This document shows positions 35,722 through 60,280 of a stretch of DNA of 64,000 nt, one piece after another. The stretch lies in the NCBI GenBank assembly GCA_937899785.1, contig CALCCG010000153.1:1-64000 (forward strand), read 5' to 3'. The DNA comes from an uncultured Erythrobacter sp. Lineage in GTDB: Bacteria > Pseudomonadota > Alphaproteobacteria > Sphingomonadales > Sphingomonadaceae. How positions within the stretch are numbered: position 1 is the first letter of the stretch; each line of letters starts with the position of its first letter. The position numbers and the translations under genes are program-made. The notes under the pieces were generated by a model. The model had not been told where the DNA came from, searched no databases, and worked only from the letters and a program-made list of their open reading frames with translations.

Positions 35722-37176
35722 ATGACCCAGTTCACAGCGGACCGATTGCTCCTGTTCGGGGCAACGGGCGATCTCGCCCGGCGCAAGCTGCTCCCGTCGC
35801 TGTGCGCGCTCGACGCGGACGACCTGCTGCCGCACGACTTGCGGATCATTGCAACCGCGCGCAGCGAGCTTGATGATGCGTCCTACCGCGCGATGGCGCG
35901 CGCGGCCTTGGAGGAGCATCTGGCGCACGATCGCCGCACCACAATAGAGCGCTTTCTGGACCGGCTGACCTATCAGCCGCTGGACGCGACCACGCTTAAA
36001 GGCTTCACCGACCTCGCCGCTAAAGTGGGCACGCCAGCCAACGGATTGGCGATCTTTCTGTCCACCGCCCCCAGCCTCTTCGGGCCCACTATCGCGGGAT
36101 TGGAACACGCGGGGCTCACCGGGGAGAGAGCGCGGATCGGCCTTGAAAAGCCGCTGGGCAACGATCTGGCCTCCAGCTGCGCCATTAACGACGCGGTCGC
36201 CAGCGCCTTTCCCGAAGAGCGTATTTTTCGGATCGATCATTATCTTGGCAAAGAGACCGTCCAAAACCTGCTGGCGCTGCGCTTTGCCAATATCCTTTTC
36301 GAGCCGATCTGGAACTCAAACTACATCAGCCACGTCCAGATCACCGTCGCGGAGACCGTTGGCCTGGAAGGCCGCGTGGGCTTCTACGACGACGCGGGTG
36401 CCTTGCGCGACATGGTGCAAAACCACATGCTGCAATTGCTAAGCCTTGTGGCGATGGAACCGCCAACCAGCTTTGACGCAACCGCGGTGCGCGATGAAAA
36501 GGTCAAGGTTTTAAGAGCCCTGCGCCCCGCGCAGGCGAGCGAAACGGTAACCGGCCAGTACCGGGCGGGCGCGATCACCGGCGCGGCGGTGCCCGGCTAT
36601 GATGAAGAGCTGGGCAAGGAATCGGCCACCGAAACCTTCGTTGCGATCAAAGCCCATCTCGACAATTGGCGCTGGAAGGGTGTCCCGTTCTATCTGCGCA
36701 CGGGGAAGCGTCTGCCCGAACGCGTGACGGAAATTCTGGTGCAGTTCGCCGCTGTGCCGCACTCGATTTTCAACGCCAGACCCACCGCCCAGGCTCCGGC
36801 TATGCAGCCCAACCATCTCTTGATCGGAATCCAACCCGAAGAGAACATCACCCTGTCGCTGATGGCCAAGGTGCCGGGTCTGGATGAGGCGGGACTGGCC
36901 TTGCGCGAAGTGCCGCTGGCGATCGCTATGCCCGACGCGTTCTCCGAGACGCATCGGCGGATCGCATATGAGCGGCTCTTGCTTGACCTTGTTAAAGGCG
37001 ATCAGACGCTGTTCGTGCGCCGCGATGAGGTGGAAGCCCAATGGCATTGGATCGACGCCATCCGCGCGCAATGGGAGCAGCAGGCGCTCACTCCCAAAAG
37101 CTACACCGCGGGAAGCTGGGGCCCGAGCGCGGCGATTGCCCTTGCGGAACGCGACGGGGTAAGCTGGCATGAATAG
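35722..37176 (+). CDS. zwf: glucose-6-phosphate dehydrogenase
   Basis: Zwf oxidises glucose-6-phosphate to 6-phosphogluconolactone with NAD(P), feeding the Entner-Doudoroff pathway. It is 484 residues. The cofactor motif is [19 protein letters not shown] and the active-site signature is [19 protein letters not shown] (catalytic His in DHYLGKE). The stop region overlaps edd by eight bases, so the two are cotranscribed. Confidence 0.97.
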
Positions 37177-38977
37177 GCTCAACGATACGGTCCACCGCGT
37201 GACGCGGCGGATTGTCGAACGCTCGCGTCCGGGCCGCGGCGCCTATCTGGAGCTGATGGAGCGCGAGGCGGACCGCGCGCCAGAACACGCGGATGTCGCT
37301 TGCTCCAACCTCGCGCACGCTTTTGCCGGCGCGCAGCAGGATCAGGAGGCCATGAAGAACCGGCGCGGCCCTAATATCGGCATCGTCACGGCCTATAACG
37401 ACATGCTTTCCGCGCATCAGCCCTATGGCCGCTATCCCGATAGGCTCAAGATCTACGCGCGCGAAGTGGGCGCGACCGCGCAGGTCGCGGGCGGCGCGCC
37501 GGCTATGTGCGACGGCGTCACTCAGGGTGAAGATGGGATGGAATTGTCGCTGTTCAGCCGCGACACCATCGCAATGGCCACCAGCGTCGCGCTCAGCCAT
37601 CAAATGTATCAGGGCGTGGCCTGTCTCGGAATTTGCGACAAGATTGTGCCGGGCTTGCTGATCGGCGCGCTGCGATTTGGCCATTTGCCCGCTGTGTTTG
37701 TCCCCTCTGGCCCCATGCCCAGCGGCATCTCGAACAAGGAAAAGCAGGAGACGCGTCAGAAATACGCCGCCGGTGAAATCGACCGCGACGCTTTGCTTGA
37801 GAGCGAGCTTGGCAGCTACCATTCGCCGGGCACGTGCACGTTCTATGGCACCGCCAATTCCAACCAAATGCTGATGGAAATGATGGGCCTGCATATCCCC
37901 GGCGCAGCCTTTGTCACTCCGGGGAGCAAACTGCGGCAGGCGCTTGATCGCGCGGCGGTGCATCGTTTGGCGCAGCTTTCGGGCACGCGCGAGCGCGCTT
38001 TGGCCAGGGTGGTCGATGAAAAGGCGATCGTGAACGCGGTGGTCGGCCTGCTTGCAACCGGGGGCTCAACCAACCACGCGATCCATCTTCCCGCGATCGC
38101 GCGGGCCGCTGGCGTTGCAATCGACTGGGACGATATGGCTGAGCTGTCGGGCGTCGTCCCGCTGCTTGCGCGGGTCTATCCCAACGGATCGGGCGATGTG
38201 AACCAGTTCCACCGCGCGGGCGGAATGGGCTTTGTGATTGGCGAATTGCTCGACGCAGGCCTTGCGCACCCGGATATCGCAACCGTTTGGGAAAGCGGGT
38301 TCGCGGCTTACGCAGGCATGCCCGCGCTGGACGACGGGCAGAGCTTAGGCTGGGAAGAGACGGGCCCTTCGAAAGATGAAGCCATGCTGCGCTCCCTTGA
38401 TGGTCCGTTTCAGCCCGATGGCGGCATGCGCTTGCTGAAAGGCAATCTGGGGCGGGCCTGCTTTAAGTCTTCAGCGGTAGAGCGCGAACGCTGGTCGGTC
38501 GAAGCGCCCGCGCGCGTGTTCGACAATCAGAGCGATCTGATCGCCGCGTTCAAAGCGGACAGCCTCAACCGCGATTTCGTGGCGGTGGTGCGGTTTCAGG
38601 GCCCAAGCGCGAACGGCATGCCCGAACTGCACGCGCTTACCCCTTCGCTGGCCGTGCTCCAGGAACGCGGCCACAAGATCGCGCTGGTCACCGATGGCCG
38701 CATGTCCGGAGCGAGCGGCAAGGTGCCCGCCGCCATCCATTGCACGCCCGAAGCCAAGCGCGGCGGCGCCTTGGCGTTGCTGCGCGATGGCGACGTAATC
38801 AAAGTCTGCGCCAACACTGGCGAGCTTTCCACCAAGGCTGACCTTTCGCAGCGCCAGCCCGCCCCGACGCCGGAGCCCTCTTTGGGCGTGGGACGCGAGC
38901 TTTTTCGGATGATGCAATCCCATGTCGATGACGCGGAAAAGGGCGCCTCGGCCATGCTTGCAAGCGCCGGGTTATGA
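37169..38977 (+). CDS. edd: 6-phosphogluconate dehydratase
   Basis: Edd dehydrates 6-phosphogluconate to KDPG using an iron-sulfur cluster. It is 602 residues and of the IlvD/Edd family. Cysteines likely to bind the cluster lie in [12 protein letters not shown] and [36 protein letters not shown] is typical. [20 protein letters not shown] near the C-terminus distinguishes Edd/IlvD. It overlaps zwf and is followed five bases later by glk. Confidence 0.97.
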
Positions 38978-38981
38978 CATC

Positions 38982-39962
38982 ATGACCGCCGCAAGTGAGC
39001 TGGTTTCGGTCGATCTGGGCGGCACCCATGCGCGGTTTGCGATCGCGACGTTGGAGGCAGGCGGCGCGGTGTCCATTGGCGCTGTAACAAAGCTGCGCGT
39101 GGCCGATTACCCGGATTTCCCCGCCGCTTGGAAAACGTATTGCGACCGCGCGGAGCGCGCCGTTCCCCGCAATGTGGCGATGGCGGTGGCCGCGCCGGTC
39201 ACCCAGGATGTCATCGACTTTCCCAACAACGCTTGGACGCTCCACCCAGCGGAGCTCAAAGACACTCTGGGATTTGAACGCCTTGGGATCGTAAACGATT
39301 TCGAAGCCGTCGCGCACGCCGTCGCTTGCGCGCCCGAAGGCGCGCTTGCGCCACTGGCGGGTCCGCCGGCCGCTTTGCCAGAAAGCGGGACGATCAGCGT
39401 GCTGGGCCCGGGCACAGGGCTCGGCGTCGCGCACGTCTTCCGCGATAGTACAGGCGGCTACCGCGTCCAGGCCACCGAAGGCAGCCATGGTTCCTTTGCC
39501 CCGGTTGACGCGGTGGAGGACGCCCTTCTCGCGCGGCTGCGCACCCGCTTCGGACGCGTCTCGAACGAACGCGTTGCCTCGGGTCCCGCGATCACGGACA
39601 TCTACGCGACCCTCGCTGTTGACAGCGGGCAGCCCGCCCCATTGACCGACGCGATCGACATCTGGGACGCCGGTCTTGCCCAAACAGACGGGCTCGCCGC
39701 ACAGGCGGTGGAGCGGTTTTGCATTATCCTTGGTTCGGTCGCAGGCGACATCGCGCTCGCTCAGGGCGCGAGCGGCGTGGTTATCGCGGGAGGCCTGGGC
39801 TATCGGATGCGCGAAACGCTTTTGCGTTCGGGCTTTGCCGCGCGTTTCGTCGCGAAGGGCCGCTACACCGGCTATATGGAGAGCCTCCCGGTCAAAATCA
39901 TCACGCAGGCCGAACCCGGCCTAATCGGCGCCGCCGCCGCGTTCGCTCAAGTGCGCGCGTAA
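38982..39962 (+). CDS. glk: glucokinase
   Basis: Glk phosphorylates glucose with ATP. The 326-residue protein belongs to the bacterial glucokinase (ROK-unrelated) family: VDLGGTHARFAIATLEAGG (phosphate-binding), NDFEAVAHAV with the catalytic Asp, VLGPGTGLGVA, EGSHGSFAPVD, and SGVVIAGGLGYRM. The start at 38982 is four bases after the edd stop. The order zwf-edd-glk matches the Zymomonas operon; the aldolase gene eda is not present here. Confidence 0.95.
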   Translation: MTAASELVSVDLGGTHARFAIATLEAGGAVSIGAVTKLRVADYPDFPAAWKTYCDRAERAVPRNVAMAVAAPVTQDVIDFPNNAWTLHPAELKDTLGFERLGIVNDFEAVAHAVACAPEGALAPLAGPPAALPESGTISVLGPGTGLGVAHVFRDSTGGYRVQATEGSHGSFAPVDAVEDALLARLRTRFGRVSNERVASGPAITDIYATLAVDSGQPAPLTDAIDIWDAGLAQTDGLAAQAVERFCIILGSVAGDIALAQGASGVVIAGGLGYRMRETLLRSGFAARFVAKGRYTGYMESLPVKIITQAEPGLIGAAAAFAQVRA

Positions 39963-40015: not shown

Positions 40016-41029
40016 TTAAAGCTCGGCTTTGACTGGCGGTTCGGCGCCGCGCGCCAGGCGCTCACCCTTCCACAATCGGTGCAACCGGTCGCCCAGAATA
40101 TCTCCCGGGCCCGTGGCAAAACGCGGGTGGCCAAAATAGGTCATAACCTCGTGCTGACGCTCCAGAGCGCGTCGATCCTGCGCCACAACGGGCGCCAGAA
40201 ACAGACGGATCGCCGCCTGCTTGAGCCAGCCAGGAGCGATCCCCTTTGGCGTTGAAAACCGCGCGAAGGGGGTGAAGGTGCCATCGGTCGCGGGGGTGAA
40301 GATCGCCGTGACGCACAAGGTCAGTTTGTCCTTGCCCTCCCAGCGCGCCTGCACCGTCGCGGGCGTGTAATAGCGCGAGACGCTGCACTCGCGATCGCGC
40401 TCGAGGAAACGCGACATAAGACCCATATCCGGCTGCGTCTGCTTGATAGTCATATCAATCCCATCGCCGTGGCTGGTAACGACAAGATCGACGGGCAGCC
40501 GCTTATCGCGTCGGCGAATAAAACCATCGTGCAGATGGTTGGTGTGAAAGGGATCCATCACATTTTCGATCGCGTCGAACGCGCGGCCACGCCATGTCCC
40601 TTGCTGCCACCAGAAATGGTCGAGTTCGGGATTGCCGAAGTCGGGGGGAAGCGGCGGCTGCTCGGGAGCGGCGTCGGACAGCGTTGCGTAGATCGCCCCG
40701 TGCCCTTCCCACACCCGCAGGCTTTGAGCGCGCAGCCGCGTATCTTGCGCGGTTTCGGCGAGGCAGCCGGGCACCGACTGGCATGCGCCGTCCGGGTCAA
40801 ACCGCCACCCGTGATAGGGGCATTCCAACGCGCCCTCGCGCACGCGGCCTTCGGACAGCGGATAGTTGCGGTGCGGGCACCGATCGATCAGCGCGCCCAA
40901 ACCCGCCTCGCTGCGGAACAGCGCAACCGGCGTGTTGCACAGCGCGATTTTCCGAACCGAACCGCGCTTAACATCGCGCGACAAGGCGACCATGTGCCAG
41001 GCTTCTTGCACCGCATCGGGAAAGCTCAT
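40016..41029 (-). CDS. Rieske non-haem iron oxygenase
   Basis: This 337-residue protein has an N-terminal Rieske [2Fe-2S] site (CPHRNYPLSEG and CPYHGWRF, around residues 50-75) and a C-terminal oxygenase domain with the mononuclear iron ligands in ENVMDPFHTNHLHDG (His/His; third ligand an Asp further on). It resembles aromatic or pheophorbide-type oxygenases but the substrate is unknown. The start at 41029 overlaps the ATP-grasp gene by four bases. It is the last gene of the six-gene operon and probably tailors its product. No ferredoxin or reductase is adjacent. Confidence 0.88.
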   Translation of the reverse strand: MSFPDAVQEAWHMVALSRDVKRGSVRKIALCNTPVALFRSEAGLGALIDRCPHRNYPLSEGRVREGALECPYHGWRFDPDGACQSVPGCLAETAQDTRLRAQSLRVWEGHGAIYATLSDAAPEQPPLPPDFGNPELDHFWWQQGTWRGRAFDAIENVMDPFHTNHLHDGFIRRRDKRLPVDLVVTSHGDGIDMTIKQTQPDMGLMSRFLERDRECSVSRYYTPATVQARWEGKDKLTLCVTAIFTPATDGTFTPFARFSTPKGIAPGWLKQAAIRLFLAPVVAQDRRALERQHEVMTYFGHPRFATGPGDILGDRLHRLWKGERLARGAEPPVKAEL

Positions 41030-42189
41030 CGCTCCAGCTCCTCGCCATTCCATTCGATATCGCGCGTGGTGGCCGCATTTGTCGAGACGCCATGCCAGAC
41101 ACCGCTGAGCATAAAGCGAGCCGCGTCAACCAGCGCGCCAGCAAGGGGCTGACGGTCCGATGGACGCGCGATCACATCGCGTCCCGCGCGCCATTGCTCG
41201 CGCCAAGCGGTCCACTGTCCGCCGAAAAGCGCCTGTGGCAGACCAAACACCAGCATGGCTGGCCCAAGGTGAAGCGAGCCGCTTGCCTTGGCGGGCATAG
41301 GGATCCCATCCCCGATCGCGCGAGCGAAGTCTCCGCCTCCGGTCAGGAAGTGCGCGCCGCTCGTTGCACGCGGATTGCATTCGAGCAGCCAGTGCGAGCC
41401 AGCTTCATCGCGCATGACATCGCAGGCAAACTGGCCGTGGATCCCCGCCTTGCTGGCCAGAGTCTGCGCGATCGCGCGCAACGCCTCGCTTTCCTCCTTA
41501 GGCGTTGGCTCAAACGCGTAGCCCGCCCCTCCTTTAAGGCGCCAGGGTGATCGGTAGGCCGCAAAGGCCACCAGTCGGCCATGATAGGCTGCGGCATGAA
41601 AGCACGCCTCGTCGCCCCTGATAAGACGCTGGGCGAGCCAAGGCGCCTCAGGGGTTGCCCGTATAGAGCGCAGCGCCTTCGCTTCAGGCCCGATCAACGC
41701 GCTCTCGCCAAAGCGGCTGAAGCGCGGTTTGAACACCCACTCGCTCGACGCGTCAGCCAACTCTGCTAGGTCGTCTTGTGTGTCGATGGGGCGGCTTTCA
41801 GGGGCGTTCAACCCCCAACCTTGCGCGGTTTGGGCGAAGGCAAACTTGTCGTGAAGCGATCGCAGCGTTGCCAGGTCGGGCGCGAACAGCCGATCGCCCA
41901 AAGCCTCTCGCAACGGCTGAGCGGCGAGCCAATAGACCTCTTCACAGGTCGGCACGATCCGGTCGATCTGGTGCGCATCCGCCAGCCGTTCAATCCACGC
42001 TGCGAAGTCAGAAGGCCGCTGCCTTGGCGCGGGATAGGCATGGTGCTGCGCGCGCAAAGCCGACCAGCGCGCCATACGCGAGGGCACGCTGTCGGCCAGG
42101 TGCACCTCCCAGCCCGCATCCGCAAAATCGCGCGCTGTATCAAGCGCGACCGCCGCGCGGGCGCCTGTGATAAGGACCCGCCTAGCCAT
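41026..42189 (-). CDS. ATP-grasp ligase-like protein
   Basis: This 387-residue protein starts MARRVLITGARAAVALDTAR, a Rossmann-like N-terminus, followed by LHDKFAFAQTAQGWGLNAPE and FKPRFSRFG, and ends its catalytic part with HWLLECNPRATSGAHFLTGG, the Mg/ATP-binding Glu/Asn/Arg set of ATP-grasp enzymes. Such enzymes join a carboxylate to an amine, thiol or other nucleophile through an acyl phosphate. The acceptor is unknown. It overlaps the adenylating-enzyme gene by eight bases. I use the ATG at 42189. Confidence 0.83.
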   Translation of the reverse strand: MARRVLITGARAAVALDTARDFADAGWEVHLADSVPSRMARWSALRAQHHAYPAPRQRPSDFAAWIERLADAHQIDRIVPTCEEVYWLAAQPLREALGDRLFAPDLATLRSLHDKFAFAQTAQGWGLNAPESRPIDTQDDLAELADASSEWVFKPRFSRFGESALIGPEAKALRSIRATPEAPWLAQRLIRGDEACFHAAAYHGRLVAFAAYRSPWRLKGGAGYAFEPTPKEESEALRAIAQTLASKAGIHGQFACDVMRDEAGSHWLLECNPRATSGAHFLTGGGDFARAIGDGIPMPAKASGSLHLGPAMLVFGLPQALFGGQWTAWREQWRAGRDVIARPSDRQPLAGALVDAARFMLSGVWHGVSTNAATTRDIEWNGEELER

Positions 42190-43420
42190 TGGTCCACACC
42201 ACTCTGCGGCGCTTTGGCCCAGCCCAGGACGATAGATCGCGGACAAGGTCTACGGGCCGATCCGCCAAGCCGCGCAAAGCCGCGACGGCTTGGTCGCCAA
42301 GCGCATTGGAGCAGTGCGGCGACACGCGCACGGTCACCTCTTCACGGGTCGCCAGCGCCTGCCAGTCCTGCTGCGCTCCCAAGATCGGATCGAGCGCGCG
42401 AACCACATCGGCGGGCGTCACCGCCCTATCGCCAAAGCGCCAGATGTCGTTCACCCGTCCCTGAGGCGGCCGGATACCCCGTCCGGCGTAGCCGCACGCG
42501 CAGGGGTGAGGATCAAGTTCGAGAAAGTCGTCCCCGCGCACCCGCACGATCGGCTGGGTCGTGCGGCGCAGATCAGTGATGATCGGTCGAAACCCCTGTG
42601 TGCCGGGCACCGGCTCAAGCTCGATCTCAAGCGCGTGATCGTTGAGGTGGAGATGGCCATGCTCGCACTCCGCACCCAGAAAGCCTTCGGTGGCCTGATA
42701 GATGGAGCGCGGGCGGATTCCGAAATGCGCGGCAAGGAAGCGCGTTTCCGCCGGACTGATCGGCTCGCTGCCACAGAACAGATGGCGCAGCGAAGGCATC
42801 GTCCCGCCCGCTCTGGCAAAGGCCAGCAAGCGGTGCGGCGGCGCGATCAGGATGGTCGGCGCAAAGTCCTGCAGGCGCTCCAGCGTTTCGGATGGCTGGG
42901 CCTCAAGCGGAAAATGGGCAAAGGCGAAGCGACCACCTTGCGTCTCTTCGTAAAGCGCGTTGCTCGCCCGGAGATGCAGCGCAAGGCGCTGACGGCTGAG
43001 CAGAGCGCGCGCTGGCAAGAGCCGGGCAAGGCTTTGGCCGATATAGTCGGCGCGCTCGGCGGGGCTCGCGGCGAACAGGCCCCGTGCGCCACCGCCACTC
43101 CCGCTCGACCAACCAGCGCTGATGGCGCTGTCGACCTGTGCCGTTTCCCCGTGCTCAGCCGTATCGGCCAACGCACACAGTTCGGCCTGCGACAGCTTGA
43201 CGCTGTTCCAGGCGCCGTAATCGCCGCGCATCTGCGCTGGATCCGTGATCGCAAACCGCGCCAAAGGTTGCCCCGCACACGCCGCAAGCGCGGGGGTTTT
43301 GGCCAGCGCGGCCTGCAGGCTGCGCCACAAGTGGCTCCGCCCTGCGGCCAATCCACGCGCGCTGCGGCCCATAGCGCGCCGCGTGCGCAGCCAGGATAGG
43401 AAAGTCAGACTACGTGTCAT
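42182..43420 (-). CDS. F390-synthetase-like adenylate-forming enzyme
   Basis: This 412-residue protein belongs to the acyl-CoA ligase / coenzyme F390 synthetase-related branch of the adenylating superfamily. The phosphate-binding loop is SAGWSSGSGGGARGLF, and IYQATEGFLGAECEHG supplies the aromatic/Glu adenylate motif. A compact C-terminal domain contains GRVNDIWRFGDRAVTPADVV. It probably activates an acid as acyl-AMP. It is shorter than full acyl-CoA ligases. It overlaps the metallo-hydrolase gene by eleven bases. Confidence 0.83.
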   Translation of the reverse strand: MTRSLTFLSWLRTRRAMGRSARGLAAGRSHLWRSLQAALAKTPALAACAGQPLARFAITDPAQMRGDYGAWNSVKLSQAELCALADTAEHGETAQVDSAISAGWSSGSGGGARGLFAASPAERADYIGQSLARLLPARALLSRQRLALHLRASNALYEETQGGRFAFAHFPLEAQPSETLERLQDFAPTILIAPPHRLLAFARAGGTMPSLRHLFCGSEPISPAETRFLAAHFGIRPRSIYQATEGFLGAECEHGHLHLNDHALEIELEPVPGTQGFRPIITDLRRTTQPIVRVRGDDFLELDPHPCACGYAGRGIRPPQGRVNDIWRFGDRAVTPADVVRALDPILGAQQDWQALATREEVTVRVSPHCSNALGDQAVAALRGLADRPVDLVRDLSSWAGPKRRRVVWTNG

Positions 43421-44258
43421 CGCATTGGCAAAGCGACTTGACGCTCGCTCGACAATGCGATGGCAAGATCGCCAGATCGCCGTTGTTGCTCGCCGCTTCG
43501 CTCAACAGATTGAGCGTCGATCGATACGCCTTGGTGTTGCCCAAAAGCGCTGTGGTGATGCGCGGGGGCGCTCGGCGCTCTGTTATCGAGCGGCCGGACC
43601 ACACCGCGTCAGCGGCCAACAGCACGGGCTGGTCCTCTTGCGTTACGAAAGCCAGACCCCAATGGCCCACGCAATGCCCCGGCAACTCGACCGCCAAGAG
43701 GCGGCCATCGCCCAGAATATCGCGACCCTCTTCGAACGGGGCGAACGCGCTAGACAAGGTCTGAGCCGGCGCATCTTCAAAAAAGCGCGCGTTCGCGTCG
43801 GCTCGCTTGGGCACCAGCGCGGAAATCAAGCCCTGGCGCACGCGCCCGAACCGCCCGGGCTTGCGCAGCTCTGTCAGCCCGGCGCGCGCACAATAGACCG
43901 GCTTATCCGCGAGATGCCGCATGCCCGCGACGTGATCGCCGTGGAAATGCGAGATGATCGTGCCGGAAATCGATGTTTCGTCGATGGCGTGGGCGGCAAG
44001 CCATGCCAGCCACTCCTGCCCTTCATCAATCGCGACCGGTGTGGTCCAGCGATAAAGCCGCTCCGGAAAGGGCTTGGTCGCCTCAAAAAAGGCGGGGTCA
44101 TAGCCTGTGTCGAACAGGAACACGCCGCGCGTCGGGTGCTCGATAACACCGACCAGCGCGGGAAAATCCACCGAACACAAGCTCCCCCCGGCCATCGTCA
44201 TGACCTCCGGATGCCGGCACGAGCCCCGTTCGAGCCATCGAAAACCAACGCGGGTCAT
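43410..44258 (-). CDS. metallo-beta-lactamase-fold hydrolase
   Basis: This 282-residue protein has the zinc motif SHFHGDHVAG (HxHxDH), preceded by FLFDTGYDPAFFEATKPF and followed by LPGHCVGHWGLAF (His) and LLAADAVWSGR (bridging Asp). It is a hydrolase, perhaps a thioesterase or lactonase, of unknown substrate. The start at 44258 overlaps the epimerase stop as ATGA, so it is translationally coupled in the six-gene operon. Confidence 0.86.
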   Translation of the reverse strand: MTRVGFRWLERGSCRHPEVMTMAGGSLCSVDFPALVGVIEHPTRGVFLFDTGYDPAFFEATKPFPERLYRWTTPVAIDEGQEWLAWLAAHAIDETSISGTIISHFHGDHVAGMRHLADKPVYCARAGLTELRKPGRFGRVRQGLISALVPKRADANARFFEDAPAQTLSSAFAPFEEGRDILGDGRLLAVELPGHCVGHWGLAFVTQEDQPVLLAADAVWSGRSITERRAPPRITTALLGNTKAYRSTLNLLSEAASNNGDLAILPSHCRASVKSLCQCDDT

Positions 44259-45265
44259 GGGTTTCCTCCTTGCCCAGCTAGGGTGCGGGCTTGCTCGCAC
44301 AAGGTCTGCAACGCATCATGGCGCGGCGAATAGCCTAGGTCGCTGTGCGCGCGGGTAAGGTCAAAGCTTTGCGAAAACCCAAGCGTCGCCAAACTGTAGC
44401 GGGTAAGCAGCGGTTCCGCCTTTGCGCCAGCCGCCTTTGCGACCCGCTCCATCGCCTCGGCAAGAACCCTGGCCAGGCCAAGCGGGAGCGGGACAAGCCG
44501 GGGCTCTTTGCCAAGCGCCTGCGCCACCGCGCGGGCAACCGCTCGCACTTCGACCGGCTGGCCGCCCGAAATGTTGATCGCGCGGCCCGAAAGCGTCTGC
44601 GCGCGCTCCTCCGCCTCGCAGATCGCCCAGGCCGCGTCGCGCAGATCCGTCAGCTCAATCAGCGCCCTTCCCCCGCCCGGCAGAGGCAAGCGTTGGCGGC
44701 TGGCCAGATCGGCCAGGCGAGGCAGGATCACCCGGTCACCGGGCCCCACCAAAGCGCGCGGCCGTATGGCGCAGCACGCCAGGATCTCATCGCTTTGAGC
44801 AAGCACCGCTTGCTCCGCATCGCGCTTGGTTTGCGCGTACCAGTTGAGCGGTTTGGGATTGGGCGGATCGTCTTCGGTAAGGTCCGGCTGATGGTGAAGG
44901 CGCGCATAGATCGACGGCGACGAGACGAACACAAAGCGGCGCATGCCGGCCTCTCGCGCCGCAGCAAGCAGAGCCTCGGTGGCCTCGACATTGGCTGAGA
45001 CAAACGCCGCGCGCGGCCCCCAGCTGGCGGACAGGGCTGCGGCGTGGATGACGCTGTCGCACCCTTGCACAAGCGCTTTGAGGTCGGCTTTGGGGTGCTC
45101 AAGATCGCACGGCGCAAACGACGCGCCCAAAGCGGTGAGCGCCTCACCAGCGGCGGTGGATCGCCCACTTGCGCGGACCCGGTGGCCGCGTTCCAGCGCC
45201 TCTTGCACCAGGGCCTTGCCGAGACCGCCCGTCGCGCCGGTCACGAGGATGGATCGCCCGCTCAC
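44255..45265 (-). CDS. NAD-dependent epimerase/3-beta-HSD-like reductase (OleD-like)
   Basis: This 336-residue extended SDR has the cofactor motif ILVTGATGGLGKALVQEAL, the catalytic Tyr/Lys in NWYAQTKRDAEQAVL, and FVFVSSPSIY before it. It resembles 3-beta-hydroxysteroid dehydrogenase and OleD, which reduces a beta-keto acid made by OleA. Given the ketoacyl synthase just upstream, it probably reduces a beta-keto product. The GTG at 45265 overlaps the synthase stop as GTGA. Confidence 0.85.
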   Translation of the reverse strand: MSGRSILVTGATGGLGKALVQEALERGHRVRASGRSTAAGEALTALGASFAPCDLEHPKADLKALVQGCDSVIHAAALSASWGPRAAFVSANVEATEALLAAAREAGMRRFVFVSSPSIYARLHHQPDLTEDDPPNPKPLNWYAQTKRDAEQAVLAQSDEILACCAIRPRALVGPGDRVILPRLADLASRQRLPLPGGGRALIELTDLRDAAWAICEAEERAQTLSGRAINISGGQPVEVRAVARAVAQALGKEPRLVPLPLGLARVLAEAMERVAKAAGAKAEPLLTRYSLATLGFSQSFDLTRAHSDLGYSPRHDALQTLCEQARTLAGQGGNP

Positions 45266-46257
45266 AGCTTGATCACCATGGCGGTGGCGCTGATGCCCGC
45301 CGCCGTTCCGAGCAGAAGAACGGTGTCGCCTGGCCTCGCGCGTCCGCTTTCGAGCGCCTGCACCAAAGTGCAAGGGATCGAGGCCGCGATCTGGTTTCCA
45401 TTTGTGGCGAAAACGTCGACCACACGCTCACTCGCGGGTTCGAACAGCCGTTTCACATGCTCAACGCCGGGCGCGCTGGCCTGGTGGCAGATGACGCAAT
45501 CAATATCGTCCGCGCTGATCTCAGCGTCCTCAAGCGCGCGTTCGATGACACCGGGCAGCGCTTTGGCCGCCGCCTTGAAAATGCCGAACGCGTCCATCTC
45601 GAAGAAAGACCCCGCGACAAGCGCGTCATAGCCTTCGGTGACGCGCAGACGGGTGCCGCCCGCGCGCAATTGCGCCAGCGCGTTGTGTTCGCCATGGGTG
45701 ACGCTGGCCTGTGCCATCACGCCTTTGCTCGGGTCCTCGCTCGCCTCGATCGCGAAAGCTGCGGCGCCGTCGCCAAAAATGGATCGGATCTTGGGTTGTT
45801 CGGGATCAAGCCCGGCCGAGGCAATATCGCTCGCAAAGACCAGCGCCCGCCTCCACCGGCCTGCGGCCATCCCCATGGCGGCGACATCCAGCGCCGCGAG
45901 AAAGGAAAGGCAGGTCTGGTTGACGTCAAAACACACAGCGCCACTTGCGCTGAGGGCCAGACGATCCTGCACAAGCACTGCGGTTGAGGGGATCGGCTGT
46001 TCCATCACGCCGCATCCCCCGATGATGACATCGGGAGGCGTCTCATCCCAGCCCGCGCGCTCAAGCGCCACACGCGCCGCTGCGGCGGCCATCATTGATG
46101 TGGTTTCCTGCGGGTTGGCCACCGCGCGCGAAGCGATGCCAAACTGGCTGAACGTCCAGCCCTTTTCGTGGCCAAAGCGCGCGTCCATTTCGCATGACGG
46201 CAGAATGGTCTGCGGTCGATACAAGCCCCAGCCTGCGAGGGTGAAATTGCTAATCAC
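45262..46257 (-). CDS. beta-ketoacyl-ACP synthase III family (FabH/OleA-like)
   Basis: This 331-residue thiolase-fold enzyme condenses an acyl starter with a second acyl unit. The triad is Cys116 in FDVNQTCLSF, His258 in CVICHQAS, and Asn288 in TNGNQIAAS. SIFGDGAAAFAIEAS is also typical. It could be FabH-like (malonyl-ACP) or OleA-like (two acyl-CoAs). It leads the six-gene operon and lies 101 bases from the divergent TetR gene. Pathway function is not known. Confidence 0.88.
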   Translation of the reverse strand: MISNFTLAGWGLYRPQTILPSCEMDARFGHEKGWTFSQFGIASRAVANPQETTSMMAAAAARVALERAGWDETPPDVIIGGCGVMEQPIPSTAVLVQDRLALSASGAVCFDVNQTCLSFLAALDVAAMGMAAGRWRRALVFASDIASAGLDPEQPKIRSIFGDGAAAFAIEASEDPSKGVMAQASVTHGEHNALAQLRAGGTRLRVTEGYDALVAGSFFEMDAFGIFKAAAKALPGVIERALEDAEISADDIDCVICHQASAPGVEHVKRLFEPASERVVDVFATNGNQIAASIPCTLVQALESGRARPGDTVLLLGTAAGISATAMVIKL

Positions 46258-46299
46258 AAGGACCTCCTTGCCCGATTCGTCTAAGGAATGCCACTAAAC

Positions 46300-46316
46300 T
46301 ATACACTGTTCAATTA
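46300..46316. promoter_or_regulatory. operator-like site 1
   Basis: TATACACTGTTCAATTA has a short ACA-C-TGT palindrome at its centre and matches site 2 at 14 of 17 positions. Confidence 0.55.
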
Positions 46317-46321
46317 AAAAA

Positions 46322-46338
46322 TAGACAATGTTCAATTT
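46322..46338. promoter_or_regulatory. operator-like site 2
   Basis: TAGACAATGTTCAATTT has an ACA-A-TGT centre and sits two helical turns from site 1. Both lie upstream of the TetR start at 46359. Confidence 0.55.
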
Positions 46339-46358
46339 ATTTGATACCAACCCTTCTC

Positions 46359-46973
46359 ATGGGAAGACGATCGGACCACACGCCTGATGAGCTGCGCGAA
46401 TTGCTGATTTCCAGCGGGCACGCGCTGATGGCGGAGCGCGGCTTTGCCAAGTTTTCCGCCCGCGAGGCGGCGCGCCGTGCGGGCTATTCTGTCGGCACGA
46501 TCTATAATGTGTTTGGCAGCCTTGATGGCTATCTGATTGCACTCAACAGCCGCACGTTCTGGCAATGGGCCACCTGGCTAGAGGCCGCTTTGGAGCGCGC
46601 CCCGGCCGATCCGAGCGGTCGCACAGAAGCGCTGGTGCGCGCATACTTTGGCTTTGCCGAGGCCAACCGAAACATCTGGATGGCGATCTACGACCATCGG
46701 ATCGATCGCTCGATCGCAATCCCACCCGAAGACGAAGCCGCACGCGAAGCGCTAACCGGGATTGTCGACCGCGAAGTCGCCGCCACGCTCGGCGTGGGCC
46801 ACCATCCCGATACGCAGCGCCTGGTCCGCTCCTTGATTGCGACCGTGCACGGCCATTGCGCCCTTTGGCTCACCGGCAGTTACGCGTTGATGCGCGAAGA
46901 AGACCCTGCGGGCCAGGCCGTCGCGCGCGTGCACGAAGTCTTGCAGTCTCACAACGCGCTTGTGCCCGGTTGA
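46359..46973 (+). CDS. TetR/AcrR-family transcriptional regulator
   Basis: This 204-residue regulator has an N-terminal TetR helix-turn-helix (MAERGFAKFSAREAARRAGYSV, split across turns as FSAREAARRAGYS and GTIYNVFGSLDGY) and a C-terminal ligand-binding domain (LVRSLIATVHGHCALWLTGS) of the WHG type. I use the ATG at 46359 (MGRRSDHTPDEL). It diverges from the ketoacyl synthase operon and probably represses it, and itself, through the two AT-rich sites. Confidence 0.88.
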   Translation: MGRRSDHTPDELRELLISSGHALMAERGFAKFSAREAARRAGYSVGTIYNVFGSLDGYLIALNSRTFWQWATWLEAALERAPADPSGRTEALVRAYFGFAEANRNIWMAIYDHRIDRSIAIPPEDEAAREALTGIVDREVAATLGVGHHPDTQRLVRSLIATVHGHCALWLTGSYALMREEDPAGQAVARVHEVLQSHNALVPG

Positions 46974-47259: not shown

Positions 47260-48579
47260 CGGACGGGGTACCACCGCAACGGGTACTCGTGCGACAGCGC
47301 TAGGCGCTGACTAAACCGCGATAGGGACCGGTTCGACAGATGTCGGCGAAGACGTGTTGGGCGTGAACGCGCAAGCCGATGCGGTGCAGGCGATCGTCGC
47401 TGGGAACGCAGCAGAAGTGCTCCGAACTGATACTCTCGCCATTGGAACATCAGCGATCGCGTCGCTTGAGGGTGCCATTTCTATCGGCGGTTCTTCAGAG
47501 GCCACTCAATCATTCACCATCGCGATTGGCAGAAATAAGGACAATGATGGTGATGATGCGGTCGCAAGCACGTTTGACGCCATAGCCATCGGAGTTCAGG
47601 CGCTGTCAGGCGGCGAGTTCGCCACCGCTTTAGGACCTCGGGCAGGTGTCCTTTCAGACGCTGCAACCGCTACAGGCAGCCAGTCCGTTGCTGAGTCTTC
47701 AGCTACTGCGCTTGGCGTTGAGGCCACCGCCTTCGACTTTGGCTCCACGGCAGTGGGCGCTGTGACGAGCGCGACCTTACTTCGGCGGCTGTTGGCTTTG
47801 ACGCCACCTCTACTAGCGTATCCTCAATCGCGCTCGGCGAACAGGCGAATGCAACATCGACGTTGGCGGTAGCGCTCGGCGCTTCTTCCGAAGCATCAGC
47901 CGGGTGCGCCATCGCAATCGGCAGCGATGACGGCGAGGATGGTTTCAATGGTGCTTTGCCTACCGGCGAAGACGCCATTGCCGTTGGCACCGACACAGCT
48001 GCCACAGGCACGGGCGCCATTGCGGAGGGTTTGAGCGCGCTTTGCGCGGGCGCGACAACGACAAAGGACGACCAGGTGACTTTAGGCGGTGCGGGAAGCT
48101 CGGTGCGGATCGGCGACATCGACGCAAGCACCGACGCGCAGGTCGGCCCGGTCGATGTGGTGACGGTTGACGCCAATGGCACGCTGGGACGGCAAGCGGT
48201 GGCGACCGCGTCTTCGGTGGACAACATCCGCGTCTCGGTCGACGCGCTCGCTCAGGTCTCCGAGGCGCAGTTTGGCGCGCTCGAGAGCACGGTTGCGGCG
48301 CTTGACGGGCGGCTGACGGGGCTCGAATTCCAGCTCCAGGATATGGACGACGCTCTGACAGGGGGCATCGCCGCGGCCGCCGCGCTGGGCAGCGCAATCG
48401 CCATGCCGGACAAGGATTTTGTACTGGCCGGCAACCTCGCCACCTATAGCGGGCAGCAGGGCTACGCGCTCACCTTTGTCGGCCGCGCAAGCGAGAACTT
48501 CGCGCTCACAGCGGGCGTGGCGGGCAACACAGGCGATGGCGATTTGATCGCCCAAGCCGGATTTGCCTTCGGGTTCTGA
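47260..48579 (+). pseudogene. decayed YadA-like trimeric autotransporter adhesin
   Basis: The sequence codes for head-type repeats rich in Ala, Gly, Ser and Thr (ATGTRATALGA, TAIGTGSTDVGED, LAIGTSAIASLEGAISIGG, SATALGVEATA, IALGEQANATST). These are followed by a coiled-coil stalk (VDALAQVSEAQFGALESTVA) and a YadA-type outer-membrane anchor ending AQAGFAFGF. The frame is broken twice: a TAA at 47312-47314 inside a head repeat, and a frame change between about 47760 and 47785, after which the other frame continues the same repeat pattern. No signal peptide is found. It therefore looks inactivated and 5'-truncated, unless the frame change is a sequence error. Confidence 0.8.
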
Positions 48580-51571: not shown

Positions 51572-52348
51572 TCATAGCCGCATCGGTTCGTCCCCATCGC
51601 CCTCCTCCGCGCGGAACAGAACAGCGGGCAGCACCGACATGGCAACGAGCAAACCGAAATAGACCGCTTCGGAAAACAGATTCATCATTTTTACTGCGAT
51701 TATCCCACCGATCATGACAACGTGAGCCAGCACCGCCCATATAAGGCTCGCAAGGATCTTTCGCCGACCGGCCGCCAAGCGCGTGTAAAACGCAAAGAGG
51801 CCGATCGGCAGGAAAAGGAAAACCGAAGTCGCCAGACCAGGATTGTACGAAGACGAAGCCAGCGCCGCGACAATGTGACTGATCGCGTTCACGACCATGA
51901 TGGCCGCCATACAAAAGAAAGGAAAGCTGCGCTCACGGGCAAACACGATCGCAAAGGCTCCAACCATCCAAACCAGCGAGGTGTTGATAACAAAAATCGC
52001 TTCAGGGCCGAGAAACTCAAGAGAATTCGGGGCTCCAACCGCCGTTTGAATGACGGAGTTAACATAGCCGTAAAAGGCGTACTGGGCTCCGGTCAGATCA
52101 ATCCAGTGCTCTTCGAACTGGTGCAGGATGTAAGCGCATAGCATGATCACGCTTAGGACTTGCGGATCGCGATAACCAGGGGTGCTGGGATCGCTTCGGG
52201 TCGCCAGGGCGACCAAAAGAAGAAAGGGGGCCATGAAGGTTCCCACTTTCATCCAATGCGGTACCAAGAAAGTGTGTTGGCCGACAGGAATCCATAGGAG
52301 CGAGAACGCTAGGATAAGCGCCACAAAAGCCTGTGTCCTTTGATTCAT
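51572..52348 (-). CDS. HXXEE-domain integral membrane protein
   Basis: This 258-residue protein has about seven hydrophobic helices. The motif LHQFEEHWID near residue 75 is the HxxEE signature, and a second histidine lies in NAISHIVAALA. The family is thought to be membrane-bound and possibly metal-dependent, with unknown function. The start at 52348 (MNQRTQAFVALILAFS) is supported over 52378. Neighbours do not clarify its role. Confidence 0.75.
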   Translation of the reverse strand: MNQRTQAFVALILAFSLLWIPVGQHTFLVPHWMKVGTFMAPFLLLVALATRSDPSTPGYRDPQVLSVIMLCAYILHQFEEHWIDLTGAQYAFYGYVNSVIQTAVGAPNSLEFLGPEAIFVINTSLVWMVGAFAIVFARERSFPFFCMAAIMVVNAISHIVAALASSSYNPGLATSVFLFLPIGLFAFYTRLAAGRRKILASLIWAVLAHVVMIGGIIAVKMMNLFSEAVYFGLLVAMSVLPAVLFRAEEGDGDEPMRL

Positions 52349-52446
52349 TTCACAACACCACCCTTCCGTACGAGACAAACCGCATCTGGCAGGATCAGGA
52401 CCCTCCCCATCACCGCAACGCGCCTGTGGTTCTCAATCGCACGCAC

Positions 52447-52857
52447 TTATTGCACTCGCGTCCAAATCTGGGTCTTGCAGATCAGGCCGCCCGCAATACA
52501 GCCTTTCACCTCCATCGTATCGTAATCCAGCGGCTTGACGGTCCCAGAAAATTCCTTGCCGATGTCGGCAACAAACGCTTTGCCCTTCCACACGCCTTTC
52601 TTACCTTCGCGAAACTTGCGAAGTATCTGTGTGCCGACGAGTTCGTCGGTTCCACCCTCCGCAGCATCGCGCTTGGCCTTCTCACTGGCCCAGACTACCG
52701 TCCCGCAACGCGTATCGTCACCGCAAGGGGTGATCTGAACGTGGACGCTGTTGGACTTGTTCTTCCAGGTGCCAAGGTCATCACGCGAAAGCTCCTCAGA
52801 TAAAGCAGGAACGCTTGCTCCGATAATCAGAAAGAGGCCGATGGCAAAAGGCTTCAT
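52447..52857 (-). CDS. exported DUF2147 protein
   Basis: This 136-residue protein has a signal peptide (MKPFAIGLFLIIGASVPALS) and a single DUF2147 domain: LGTWKNKSNSVHVQITPCGD, the CGDDTRCGTVVW cysteine pair, and MEVKGCIAGGLICKTQIWTR with a second pair. The domain is a small beta-barrel found in periplasmic proteins. Function unknown. Confidence 0.85.
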   Translation of the reverse strand: MKPFAIGLFLIIGASVPALSEELSRDDLGTWKNKSNSVHVQITPCGDDTRCGTVVWASEKAKRDAAEGGTDELVGTQILRKFREGKKGVWKGKAFVADIGKEFSGTVKPLDYDTMEVKGCIAGGLICKTQIWTRVQ

Positions 52858-52930
52858 ATCAACGCTCCGTTGGTTGATGAAAGGACTACAACTTCTTGCC
52901 GCTTTGAGACTCCCTCGAACTTGTGCTTCT

Positions 52931-53758
52931 TCAACTCATCTTTGGAAATTGGCCGCTCCGATAGGCCTCCTGGAAGGCGGCGACTTTGATGACGGAAGAC
53001 CCAACGAAGCTACCCGAAATGGCCGGCGGTGACGCAAACCGAGCCCCTCCCAGCACGATCAATCGGCATCCACCTTCGGTATCAATCAACTCCACGCCCT
53101 CCCCTTCGAGGATGACAAGCGTTTGCGGTTCCAGACTCCGGCCATCAAGCCTCGCTTCGCCCTCCAAGAGGTAGATGGCGCGCTCCTCGGCGTGCGCTTC
53201 GATGGGTACAACGCTGTCAGGAGCGCACACCAGATCGGCAAGGACCGTTTCACTGTAGGTGGTGGTCGGAGCGCGCAGGCCCCAGGCTGAACCAATCAAG
53301 GTTGTGACGCGCGCTCCAGGCAATTCGGCCGACGGCAGATCGGCAGCCCGGTGAATCTCAAAATCGGGCGCCATGTCTTCAAACCGCTCCGGAAGCGCGA
53401 TCCACATCTGGATAAAGTTGGCCGTATGGACCGGAGAGGGATGCTCCTGATCGGGGCGCTCTTCGTGTGTTATGCCGCCACCCGCCGTCATCAGCGCAAG
53501 ATCGCCGACCTCAATCCGCGCAGAGTTTCCCGCGCTGTCACGGTGGATCAAGGCGTCTGCGAGAAGATAGGTCAAGGTTGCAAGGCCCGCATGTGGGTGT
53601 TCGCCCACTCCATGGGCTTGCTGTCGATCAATCGACGTCGGACCGCCGTGGTCCATGAGGATGAAGGGGCCGACCATCATACGGTCGACGCTCGGCAGCG
53701 CGCGGCGCACTGGCAGCGGTCCCAACCGCGCAAGCCGTGGGCGAACAATTTCACGCAT
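52931..53758 (-). CDS. pirin family protein
   Basis: This 275-residue bicupin has the pirin metal site GEHPHAGLATLTYLL (two His) plus ITHEER (His/Glu), and a C-terminal cupin (AEERAIYLLEGEARLDGRSL). Bacterial pirins include quercetinases and redox-responsive regulators. The ATG at 53758 follows AGGAG. A GTG six bases earlier is less likely. It diverges from the SDR gene. Confidence 0.88.
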   Translation of the reverse strand: MREIVRPRLARLGPLPVRRALPSVDRMMVGPFILMDHGGPTSIDRQQAHGVGEHPHAGLATLTYLLADALIHRDSAGNSARIEVGDLALMTAGGGITHEERPDQEHPSPVHTANFIQMWIALPERFEDMAPDFEIHRAADLPSAELPGARVTTLIGSAWGLRAPTTTYSETVLADLVCAPDSVVPIEAHAEERAIYLLEGEARLDGRSLEPQTLVILEGEGVELIDTEGGCRLIVLGGARFASPPAISGSFVGSSVIKVAAFQEAYRSGQFPKMS

Positions 53759-54041
53759 GACCACTCCTGCGCAAGTCGGCGCCCTCGGACAAACGTTTGT
53801 TATTCGATGAAGCAGGAGTGCACACGCGGCGTCCCTCTAGGCCCCACTCTCTTTGAGCGTCCTTACCTAGTACCACGCAAAGTGCGCGTTGCGGTGTGTA
53901 GCATTTGATCACGTCCTGCGCGAGTGCGCGCATTGCAGATCCGTTGATCCTAGCGCACCCCATTTTGCGCGCGTAGTGTGCCCCTGCGCGCATTGAACTA
54001 AACCGATTGGAAGCCCAACATAAGGTCAAAGGGGAGCGGGA
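53759..54041. promoter_or_regulatory. divergent gap pirin / SDR with repeated GC motif
   Basis: Within 283 bases the sequence TGCGCGCATTG occurs twice (53925-53935 and 53985-53995, 60 bases apart), with a third related GTGCGCGTTG at 53882-53891. These may be binding sites for the nearby LysR regulator or another factor. No gene is convincing. Confidence 0.45.
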
Positions 54042-54896
54042 ATGGCGAATGGCCGCACAGCTGCAATTACAGGGTCAACCGGGGGCATTGGCACCGCTAT
54101 CGCAAGGGGCCTTGCCGAAGACGGATGGTCTCTTGTTTTAGTGAACCGCTCGCGGACCAAAGCTCTTGCTCAAAAAGAGGAGCTACAACGAGACTTTCCA
54201 ACCATTAGGATCCAGACCGTTCAGACCGACCTTATGGATCTCGAATCCATAAAAACGAGTTGCGATGAAATCGCGCAAATCACCGATCACATCGACGCGC
54301 TGTATTGCGTCGCCGGCGTGCTTACATCTCAAAGGACGCTGAGTGCGCAGGGGCATGAATCGCATTACGCCGTCAATGTGCTGGCGCCTTATGCGTTGAT
54401 CCGGAACCTCGCACCGCTCCTTACCCGCGCCGAAAGCGACGAACATGGTATGGTGGTCACCATGTCATCGAGCGCAATCAATCGGCCAAAGTTGGACACC
54501 TCGAGCCTCAGCGATCCGGCGTCCATTGGAGGATTGATGGGCGCCTACGCGCACACAAAACTCGCGATGACAGCGATGTGCGTACAGATGGCTCCTGAAC
54601 TGGAAGAGAGCGGCGTTCTCATCCGGGCAATCGACCCCGGTCCAACAAAGACATCGATGACGTCCGGCGGAGACGGAATGCCGATTGTGTTGCGGTGGCT
54701 GGTTCCGCTGCTCTTTGCAGATGCAAGCACCCAAGCCGCCAAGGTCATCAAAGCCGCCGATCCGGAGGGTTTGGATAAGCGCACGGGCGTCTTTGTAAGT
54801 TCGGGCCGCATCAAGCCCCTACCCTCGTCGATTGCCGAAGCCCCCGAAAGAGCGAAACTCATGGATACTATAGCCAGTGCTTACGCATCGAGTTGA
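54042..54896 (+). CDS. short-chain dehydrogenase/reductase
   Basis: This 284-residue SDR has the cofactor motif AAITGSTGGIGTAIARGLA, the structural CVAGVLTS (usually NNAG, here altered), VTMSSSAINR, and the catalytic Tyr/Lys in YAHTKLAMTAM. It resembles retinol-dehydrogenase-like SDRs. Substrate unknown. It is convergent with a LysR gene and lies in a region of lower GC than the left half of the window. Confidence 0.85.
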   Translation: MANGRTAAITGSTGGIGTAIARGLAEDGWSLVLVNRSRTKALAQKEELQRDFPTIRIQTVQTDLMDLESIKTSCDEIAQITDHIDALYCVAGVLTSQRTLSAQGHESHYAVNVLAPYALIRNLAPLLTRAESDEHGMVVTMSSSAINRPKLDTSSLSDPASIGGLMGAYAHTKLAMTAMCVQMAPELEESGVLIRAIDPGPTKTSMTSGGDGMPIVLRWLVPLLFADASTQAAKVIKAADPEGLDKRTGVFVSSGRIKPLPSSIAEAPERAKLMDTIASAYASS

Positions 54897-54943
54897 ATCG
54901 GGGCAGTTGAGGAAAAGCCGTCTGTAGGATCCATCCCAGGCGC

Positions 54944-55837
54944 TCAGCGCCCCATCATTGGCAAGACTTGCTCGTCTCTCAAGATGCTGAGAAAGGCCTG
55001 AATCTTCTCGTTCCTGTGTAGGTCGACATGAGTCACTTGCCAGCTATCGACCTTCCAAAAATTCGGACGCGGGTGGATTTCAACAAGGTGATCTACAGAT
55101 GGATGCCGATTGAGAGGCACGAAACCCGCCCCAACCCCATACTCGATAGCCGAAACAATCCGTTCCGCATCGCCAAACTCGACTTTCACCGCCTGCTTTG
55201 GGACGGTTTGCGCCAACCATCGGAGAAATGACTTCTTCTGAATAGCCGGATTGGCCGGCACTATGAAAGACATCTGCGAAAGATCAAAAGCACCATCAGA
55301 CATGCCAAGCTTTTCAAGATATGCCGGGGATGCGAACAGGCCAAACTCAACAGACTTGAAAGGAACGACGACGCTGTCGGGCTCTTGTGGCGGTGCACCG
55401 ACCCGAAAGGCAATATCCGCTTCGCCGTACTCCAGGCGCGCAATGGTATCGGTTGTGACCAGTTTGATGGTAACGTCCGGGAAGGCCGAAGAGAACGTGG
55501 CCACGGCTGGGAGCACCTCAGGAAGCAGCAACTCGAGCGTGGAGATAACGAGTTCTCCGGCCAACTTCGTCTGATCCCGGCGAGCAATGCGGTGCAGTTC
55601 CTGAAAGCCGGCTTCGGCAAGATCGGCAATGCGCAACATCTCCGCGCCAAACTCAGTTGGGGTAAAGCCCGTTTGCGAACGCAAGAAGAGCTTCGCTCCG
55701 TAAACTTCTTCAAGCAAGTTCACATGACGGGTGACCGTAGCGCGATGCACGCCAAGCTCTTCGGAAGCCGCACTTACGGTGCCAAGCCTAGCCACCGCAG
55801 CCGCCGTGCGAATTTCTTCCCAATGTCTCATTTTCAC
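54944..55837 (-). CDS. LysR-family transcriptional regulator A
   Basis: This 297-residue regulator has an N-terminal winged helix (EEIRTAAAVARLGTVSAASE, ELGVHRATVTRHVNLLEEVY) and a periplasmic-binding-like effector domain (ELVISTLELLLPEVLPAVAT). It is clearly similar to the second LysR at 60281-61261, sharing the segment around LGTVSAA and GVHRATV. The pair bracket the NTF2-like, AhpD-like and porin genes, and may control them. Confidence 0.9.
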   Translation of the reverse strand: MKMRHWEEIRTAAAVARLGTVSAASEELGVHRATVTRHVNLLEEVYGAKLFLRSQTGFTPTEFGAEMLRIADLAEAGFQELHRIARRDQTKLAGELVISTLELLLPEVLPAVATFSSAFPDVTIKLVTTDTIARLEYGEADIAFRVGAPPQEPDSVVVPFKSVEFGLFASPAYLEKLGMSDGAFDLSQMSFIVPANPAIQKKSFLRWLAQTVPKQAVKVEFGDAERIVSAIEYGVGAGFVPLNRHPSVDHLVEIHPRPNFWKVDSWQVTHVDLHRNEKIQAFLSILRDEQVLPMMGR

Positions 55838-55914
55838 TGGTCTTAGACCCTTGGGGTCCGCGCGGCTAGCGCGCGATAAGGCGGCACCTTGGCAATCGTC
55901 TCCCTTCTCGGGCT

Positions 55915-57825: not shown

Positions 57826-57839
57826 GGAAGCTTACTCCG

Positions 57840-60229: not shown

Positions 60230-60280
60230 CCTCCTATGTCGGGCAGCTGGATGAAATCGACGCCACAAAGATCGCTAGGG

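Follow-up and report, generated by a model that had tools for sequence, protein, structure and literature searches.

The operon and its divergent regulator

In a window of 64,000 nucleotides from an uncultured Erythrobacter sp. (contig CALCCG010000153.1 of assembly GCA_937899785.1, a draft 3.55 Mb in size and split into 256 contigs), six minus-strand open reading frames (ORFs) occupy positions 40016-46257 and a TetR-family gene lies divergently on the plus strand (Table 1). An ORF check confirmed the coordinates, and family scans identified a type III ketoacyl synthase (KAS), an OleD-like reductase of the short-chain dehydrogenase/reductase (SDR) type, a hydrolase of the metallo-β-lactamase (MBL) fold, an F390-synthetase-related adenylate-forming enzyme (AFE) that is also PaaK-like, a PRK06849-like ATP-grasp ligase, a Rieske oxygenase and the TetR regulator. 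The layout of six overlapping genes with a divergent TetR gene given in the original prediction, which had been made from the sequence of the window, was thus confirmed in both positions and families.

The likely start codons were chosen by comparison with relatives, and with these starts all junctions overlapped by 4-11 bp. The GTG of the SDR gene, one codon past a GCT at 45268, forms a GTGA overlap with the KAS stop codon, the ATG codons of the MBL and Rieske genes each overlap the upstream gene as ATGA, and the AFE and ATP-grasp genes begin 11 and 8 bp inside the preceding genes. The overlap at every junction suggests that the six genes form one translationally coupled operon. For the TetR gene the ATG start is more likely than the TTG, which is only 3 bp from an operator-like site.

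Table 1. Coordinates of the operon, its regulator and candidate operators in the window, and of the related operon in Escherichia coli
Feature	Position	Strand	Details
Rieske oxygenase with VanA-type C-terminal domain, 337 aa	40016..41029	minus	ATG start 41029
ATP-grasp ligase, PRK06849-like, 387 aa	41026..42189	minus	ATG start 42189
AFE, PaaK/F390-synthetase-like, TIGR02304 relative, 412 aa	42182..43420	minus	ATG start 43420
MBL-fold hydrolase, lactonase-like, 282 aa	43410..44258	minus	ATG start 44258; di-metal site complete
SDR/epimerase-fold reductase, OleD-like	44255..45265	minus	motifs GATGGLG and YAQTK; GTG start 45265
KAS III, CorB/MxnB-like, 331 aa	45262..46257	minus	GTG start 46257; C116/H258/N288 triad, Ile89
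Operator-like site, KAS-proximal, AATTGAACAGTGTATAGTT	46297..46315	minus	tandem conserved site
Operator-like site, TetR-proximal, AATTGAACATTGTCTATTT	46319..46337	minus	22 bp from the first
TetR-family regulator, divergent	46359..46973	plus	ATG start 46359; TTG 46341 possible
E. coli core operon	L110 5741-12622; L114 6001-12882 (CFT073)		between the narI and tRNA-Tyr genes in CFT073

Relationship of the ketoacyl synthase to CorB and MxnB

The triad of the KAS was kept in 53/53 aligned rows. When the family profile was compared to the PDB, the highest scores were those of CorB (219 bits) and 4v2p (217 bits), an entry labelled merely 'ketosynthase' that we take to be MxnB, followed by the best FabH at 190 bits and, at about 89 bits, by chains that we believe to be OleA. 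CorB and 4v2p were the top two matches not only for the profile but also for the KAS of the window, of E. coli and of Paenibacillus. Their lead over the best FabH was 27-29 bits for the profile, 14-20 bits for the window KAS, and 7-20 and 59-60 bits for the E. coli and Paenibacillus proteins, with the minimum of 7 bits found in E. coli.

Position 89 of the KAS was isoleucine (40 rows) or leucine (13 rows) and never glutamate, and the aligned residue is valine in CorB and phenylalanine in FabH. According to the available text of PMC4578411, the corresponding E117 of OleA and E105 of PpyS act as the catalytic base, MxnB and CorB have Val94 there, and spontaneous deprotonation was suggested for the CorB/MxnB type. 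Because isoleucine or leucine is aligned to the OleA/PpyS glutamate, the window enzyme is predicted to be a KAS without an OleA-type base, and both its closest relationship and the aliphatic residue fit the CorB/MxnB type. CorB and MxnB, of corallopyronin and myxopyronin synthesis, are its closest solved structures, and they share with it a free-standing KAS III architecture, the Cys-His-Asn triad and a hydrophobic residue at the position of the glutamate (PMC4578411 and PMC4901931, as far as their available text goes). In contrast, those enzymes use the carrier proteins of modular polyketide synthases to form α-pyrones, whereas no polyketide synthase or carrier-protein gene was found at the window operon, where the KAS is instead followed by a reductase.

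Enzymes encoded downstream of the ketoacyl synthase

The best curated match of the SDR was OleD, with 196.9 bits against a family cut-off of 580; the Paenibacillus SDR reached 241.2 bits. In the MBL protein, the HxHxDH motif and the further metal ligands (H118, H120, D122, H123, H209, D231 and H282) were kept in 53/53 rows. An AlphaFold model of this protein, with a mean predicted local distance difference test score (pLDDT) of 89.1, gave 4-pyridoxolactonase and acyl-homoserine lactone (AHL) lactonases as the best Foldseek matches, the twelve best solved relatives being 16-20% identical to it. As modelled, the enzyme resembles these lactonases and shares their fold and metal site, but its genetic setting is neither that of quorum quenching nor that of vitamin B6 degradation.

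The AFE has PaaK-like relatives in the PDB, and its motif residues were conserved among the aligned rows. Residues E289, N291 and R293 of the ATP-grasp protein were kept in 42/42 rows, and its model (pLDDT 89.3) matched PurK, a carbamoyl-phosphate-synthase-like protein, GAR synthetase, an L-amino-acid ligase and PylC, which is consistent with a carboxylate-amine ligase. The Rieske protein contains the motifs CxH...CxxH and DxxHxxxxH; its nearest solved relatives were SxtT and SxtDIOX with DdmC close behind, and its best curated family was SdmA, at a score far below the cut-off. The catalytic motifs that had been described as intact were therefore all present. The window AFE, KAS and ATP-grasp proteins scored below the cut-offs of TIGR02304 (F390 synthetase-related), PRK07204 (KAS III) and PRK06849 (ATP-grasp), respectively, and are homologues of these families on a divergent branch; the NCBI descriptions shown for the three families give no pathway.

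Conservation of the six-gene order

Strong matches to the AFE (E < 1e-30) were found in 12/396 genomes at the order level and in 3/61 close relatives, and matches above 250 bits in 10/398 genomes at the phylum level, the genome of the window included each time. The distribution is patchy. Among the 12 loci fetched from the sphingomonad family, 10 had the single order TetR-KAS-SDR-MBL-AFE-ATPgrasp-Rieske; L032 was without the ATP-grasp and Rieske genes, and L035 was rearranged with TetR co-directional with KAS. When species genomes were scanned with the AFE alignment, 29 loci were recovered, some of them duplicate records of loci fetched earlier, from Erythrobacter, Aurantiacibacter, Croceibacterium, Novosphingobium, Pacificimonas and Sphingopyxis and, as unexpected members, from Halomonas, Vreelandella and Modicisalibacter. 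The full six genes were present in the same order in 27/29 of these loci and the first four in 29/29, so that the expected conservation of gene order in relatives was borne out and the designation as a biosynthetic-type operon could be retained.

In a four-protein tree, built with a quick method without bootstrap and with long outgroup branches flagged, nine Halomonadaceae rows and G467 formed one group (support of 100 in the SH-like approximate likelihood ratio test, SH-aLRT) that was nested within the sphingomonad copies and joined (SH-aLRT 99) to the group containing the window copy. We read this nesting as a probable single transfer from Alphaproteobacteria to Gammaproteobacteria.

Beyond the operon, no other family of flanking ORFs of at least 100 aa occurred in more than 7/35 loci, and among ORFs of 60-160 aa at a distance of up to 5 kb no family occurred in more than 6/35; the most frequent flanking families reflected local Halomonadaceae synteny. 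A motif of the acyl carrier protein type was found in 2 of 2053 small ORFs from the 35 loci and did not recur, and no carrier-protein gene was seen within the operon or close to it. The possibility that the cluster was inserted at a fixed site was also considered and was not demonstrated: in G306 and G030, the cluster and a glk relative share a contig but are some 11-12 kb apart.

A four-gene core with changing partners

We defined the KAS-SDR-MBL-AFE quartet, with an AFE of the F390 type, as the core of the family. From 65 long loci, most of which had been selected because KAS or AFE matched strongly and which are hence not a random sample, 10 were left out as repeated records or essentially identical sequences (L036 was also unused). 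All four core genes were present in 52/55 of the remaining non-identical loci, which come from Pseudomonadota, Bacillota and Fusobacteriota. The three others were L075 and L076, which have weak PaaK-like matches, and L112, with AFE and ATP-grasp only. Around weak AFE matches, a KAS, SDR or MBL gene was found in 0/29 short loci, in which at most 1.5 kb on each side was covered.

The partners of the core varied. Two sphingomonad loci, L098 (8066-12809) and L032 (7577-12283), kept TetR, the operator sites and the core and showed no ATP-grasp or Rieske gene or remnant at the locus. In Paracoccus and Ketogulonicigenium the core is accompanied by a divergent TetR gene and a sulfotransferase gene, again without ATP-grasp and Rieske genes. 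In Shinella and Rhizobium it is found with GNAT, Rieske and ATP-grasp genes, in Paenibacillus and Paraburkholderia with ATP-grasp and GNAT, and in Pontibacillus with ATP-grasp alone. A Fusobacterium locus has the four genes reordered and its MBL match is weak (22% identity), and in Pseudomonas sp. Leaf58 they are spread over about 10 kb. In E. coli the core is joined by PAP2, fatty-acid hydroxylase and desaturase genes and by no ATP-grasp or Rieske gene. At least 80% of the E. coli query was covered in 671/5426 complete genomes, including CFT073 and JJ1887, and its genomic position was established in CFT073. The AFE proteins of E. coli and Paenibacillus passed the TIGR02304 threshold, and the KAS of Paenibacillus passed the one for PRK07204. 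Judged from these comparisons, the first four genes are a separable core and the ATP-grasp and Rieske genes add-ons.

Further observations were made at these loci. The sulfotransferase gene adjoins TetR and is divergent from the core (7238-8284 in L106 and 7274-8287 in L107, from Paracoccus and Ketogulonicigenium). On Pseudomonas jumbo plasmids, the core is scattered over ~10 kb in L109 (13971-27147), and only AFE and an ATP-grasp relative are present in L112 (8509-12097). A protein of ~370 aa belongs to several core loci (L035 7180-8328; L111 13061-14161, there annotated as GNAT); in neither of these two did it match a Pfam family at E 0.01.

Paired operator-like sites between TetR and KAS

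In the gap between the TetR and KAS genes, AATTGAACANTGTNTANTT occurs twice at a spacing of 22 bp, compared to an expected 0.00 when the window was shuffled 100 times. Among non-duplicate loci whose adjacent divergent TetR shares 65% identity or more with that of the window, 18/18 had a pair of sites with no more than 2 mismatches and a spacing of 22-23 bp, counting the window itself and L102, whose TetR gene is cut by the contig end. In six-gene loci without an adjacent TetR gene, the pair was missing in 14/15: the ten loci of the Halomonadaceae type had at most one site and L092, L093, L094 and L104 had none, with L100 as the exception that had both. Single or weaker related sites were seen in L106, L107 and L035, in which TetR is 30-48% identical. 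When 11 other genomes were searched with an 18-base pattern allowing 1 mismatch, 18/18 matches fell, by coordinates, in the TetR-KAS gap, and the reversed control gave 0. Since the sites track the presence of TetR and the matches in these genomes fall in the gap, the role of TetR is likely local and the sites are putative operators.

Likeness to known pathways

The operon shows a likeness to the OleABCD and lipstatin-type β-lactone pathways (PMC7064751, as far as its available text goes) in the combination of an OleD-like reductase, a KAS, an adenylate-forming enzyme and a hydrolase. The window KAS, however, is without the OleA glutamate and nearer to CorB, and the adenylating enzyme is PaaK-like. 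The hydrolase also differs, as OleB has an α/β fold and the window enzyme an MBL fold. No OleB or OleC homologue was found in the cluster, where this search was made and where the remaining genes encode the MBL-fold, PaaK-like, ATP-grasp and Rieske proteins. Of what had been pointed out about the olefin pathway, the OleD-like reductase and the lack of OleB- and OleC-type partners in the cluster were upheld, and the KAS was placed closest to CorB and MxnB. Membership in the Ole pathway was rejected because of the glutamate position together with the identity of the other enzymes.

Neither the cluster nor its E. coli relative was found described in the open-access full-text literature, a scope outside which most subscription papers lie; within it, the view that no described cluster has this exact set still stands. 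Four papers that mention F390 synthetase (PMC9823363, PMC5467263, PMC5501837 and PMC2649909) do not describe the KAS-SDR-MBL-AFE set in their available text, where three name a single such gene and one reports such a gene in fatty-acid gene clusters of two bacteria. The component families are already known, and we file the set as a variant of KAS III-initiated pathways for which no description was found; there is a genuine possibility that the quartet represents a separate class of pathway.

A proposed pathway and its alternatives

The reading that we prefer, with a probability of roughly 0.45, is that the operon is locally regulated by TetR and would produce a small specialised metabolite from acyl chains, either an acyl-chain-derived amide or an acid. 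In this proposal, in which each step is taken from family resemblance, TetR would repress the operon until it is released by a ligand, perhaps a pathway intermediate. The KAS would take acyl thioesters from primary fatty-acid metabolism and, in the manner of CorB and MxnB, join two chains or a chain and a β-ketoacyl unit. The new β-ketone would be reduced by the OleD-like SDR, the resulting lactone or thioester would be hydrolysed to a hydroxy acid by the lactonase-like MBL enzyme, and the PaaK-like AFE would re-activate this acid as an adenylate or thioester. The six-gene version could add optional tailoring, in which the ATP-grasp enzyme would form an amide, with an amine or an amino acid as partner, and the Rieske oxygenase would introduce a hydroxyl group with electrons from a reductase encoded elsewhere. 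Because neither a recurring neighbour family nor a carrier-protein-like small ORF was found, the host presumably supplies substrates and electrons.

Several points weigh against this proposal. The lead of CorB and 4v2p over FabH is as small as 7 bits in one case, and a FabH-like decarboxylative extension by the KAS is possible. The modelled MBL fold appears to fit a lactonase or a thioesterase alike, and the pathway could instead begin with an aryl acid activated by the PaaK-like enzyme. Since the tailoring differs, from the fatty-acid hydroxylase and desaturase of E. coli to the sulfotransferase beside TetR in Paracoccus, a single product class is uncertain. In the genome of the window, a 17-base pattern allowing 2 mismatches gave 10 matches, 8 of them outside the gap, compared to 2 for the reversed control, and further TetR targets may possibly exist there. 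Only the two gap sites were exact; two others had one mismatch, one among ORFs that we take from their sequences to be hfq-, hflX- and mazG-like, the other near ORFs that are presumably msrB-like and penicillin-binding-protein-like. A wider TetR regulon was considered and set aside; in the 11 other genomes the stricter pattern matched nowhere outside the gap.

If the PaaK-like enzyme does act first, the operon could follow the logic of Pseudomonas quinolone signal (PQS) synthesis: an aryl or small acid would be activated, the KAS would add malonyl, the SDR would reduce the β-ketone, the MBL enzyme would serve as thioesterase, and the ATP-grasp and Rieske enzymes would tailor the small aromatic product. 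The PaaK-like relatives of the AFE, the FabH-like intact KAS triad and a 'PQS biosynthetic enzyme' among the KAS matches (75.7 bits, presumably PqsD) speak for such a route. We consider it unlikely but worth keeping in view, because the KAS is nearer to CorB and MxnB than to FabH or PqsD, the fatty-acid hydroxylase and desaturase genes of the E. coli version point to long chains, and the MBL model matches lactonases, with no PqsE among the best 50 matches listed. An analogue of the OleA-D-C-B sequence would have the KAS join chains, the SDR yield a 2-alkyl-3-hydroxy acid, the PaaK-like enzyme close a β-lactone in the role of OleC, and the MBL enzyme open or decarboxylate it in the role of OleB. 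The OleD match of the SDR, the lactonase-like MBL protein, the adenylate-forming enzyme and the joint travel of the four core genes agree with this analogue, but we regard it as improbable: the OleA glutamate was replaced in 53/53 rows, the relatives of the MBL enzyme that were found are hydrolases, and a lactone synthetase role for the PaaK-like enzyme would be an assumption. Least convincing to us is a catabolic, detoxifying or signal-processing operon, in which lactonase, ligase and oxygenase would degrade an external compound. Rieske enzymes are often degradative, the MBL protein is close to 4-pyridoxolactonase and AHL lactonases, and a divergent TetR gene with a patchy distribution would suit this role; yet the KAS and ATP-grasp ligase build bonds rather than break them, and the operon has no other conserved gene family as a neighbour.

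The core could have a wider significance. An orphan quartet of near-constant composition, found in at least three phyla and in the 671 E. coli genomes, may make one scaffold that is undescribed in the literature searched. That it would be a widespread and so far unrecognised route for joining chains, parallel to but independent of OleABCD, with the PaaK-like enzyme making a β-lactone, the lactonase-fold enzyme opening or decarboxylating it and differing modules decorating the scaffold, is a speculative extension to which we give little weight. If it were true, roughly an eighth of complete E. coli genomes would be among those that decorate a common scaffold. The Erythrobacter version is compact and has its own TetR and operator-like sites, and it offers a simple setting for finding the product and, through it, for interpreting the versions of E. 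coli, Rhizobium and Paenibacillus.

Other features of the window

Directly beside the operon, positions 35722-39962 contain genes resembling an Entner-Doudoroff set, which we take from their sequences to be zwf, edd and glk. At 47354-48579, two overlapping ORFs in different frames contain repeats that seem to resemble the head repeats of a trimeric autotransporter adhesin, and a frameshift or sequencing error is possible there. In the last 12 kb (52001-64000), the G+C content drops from about 0.58-0.67 to 0.55-0.58.

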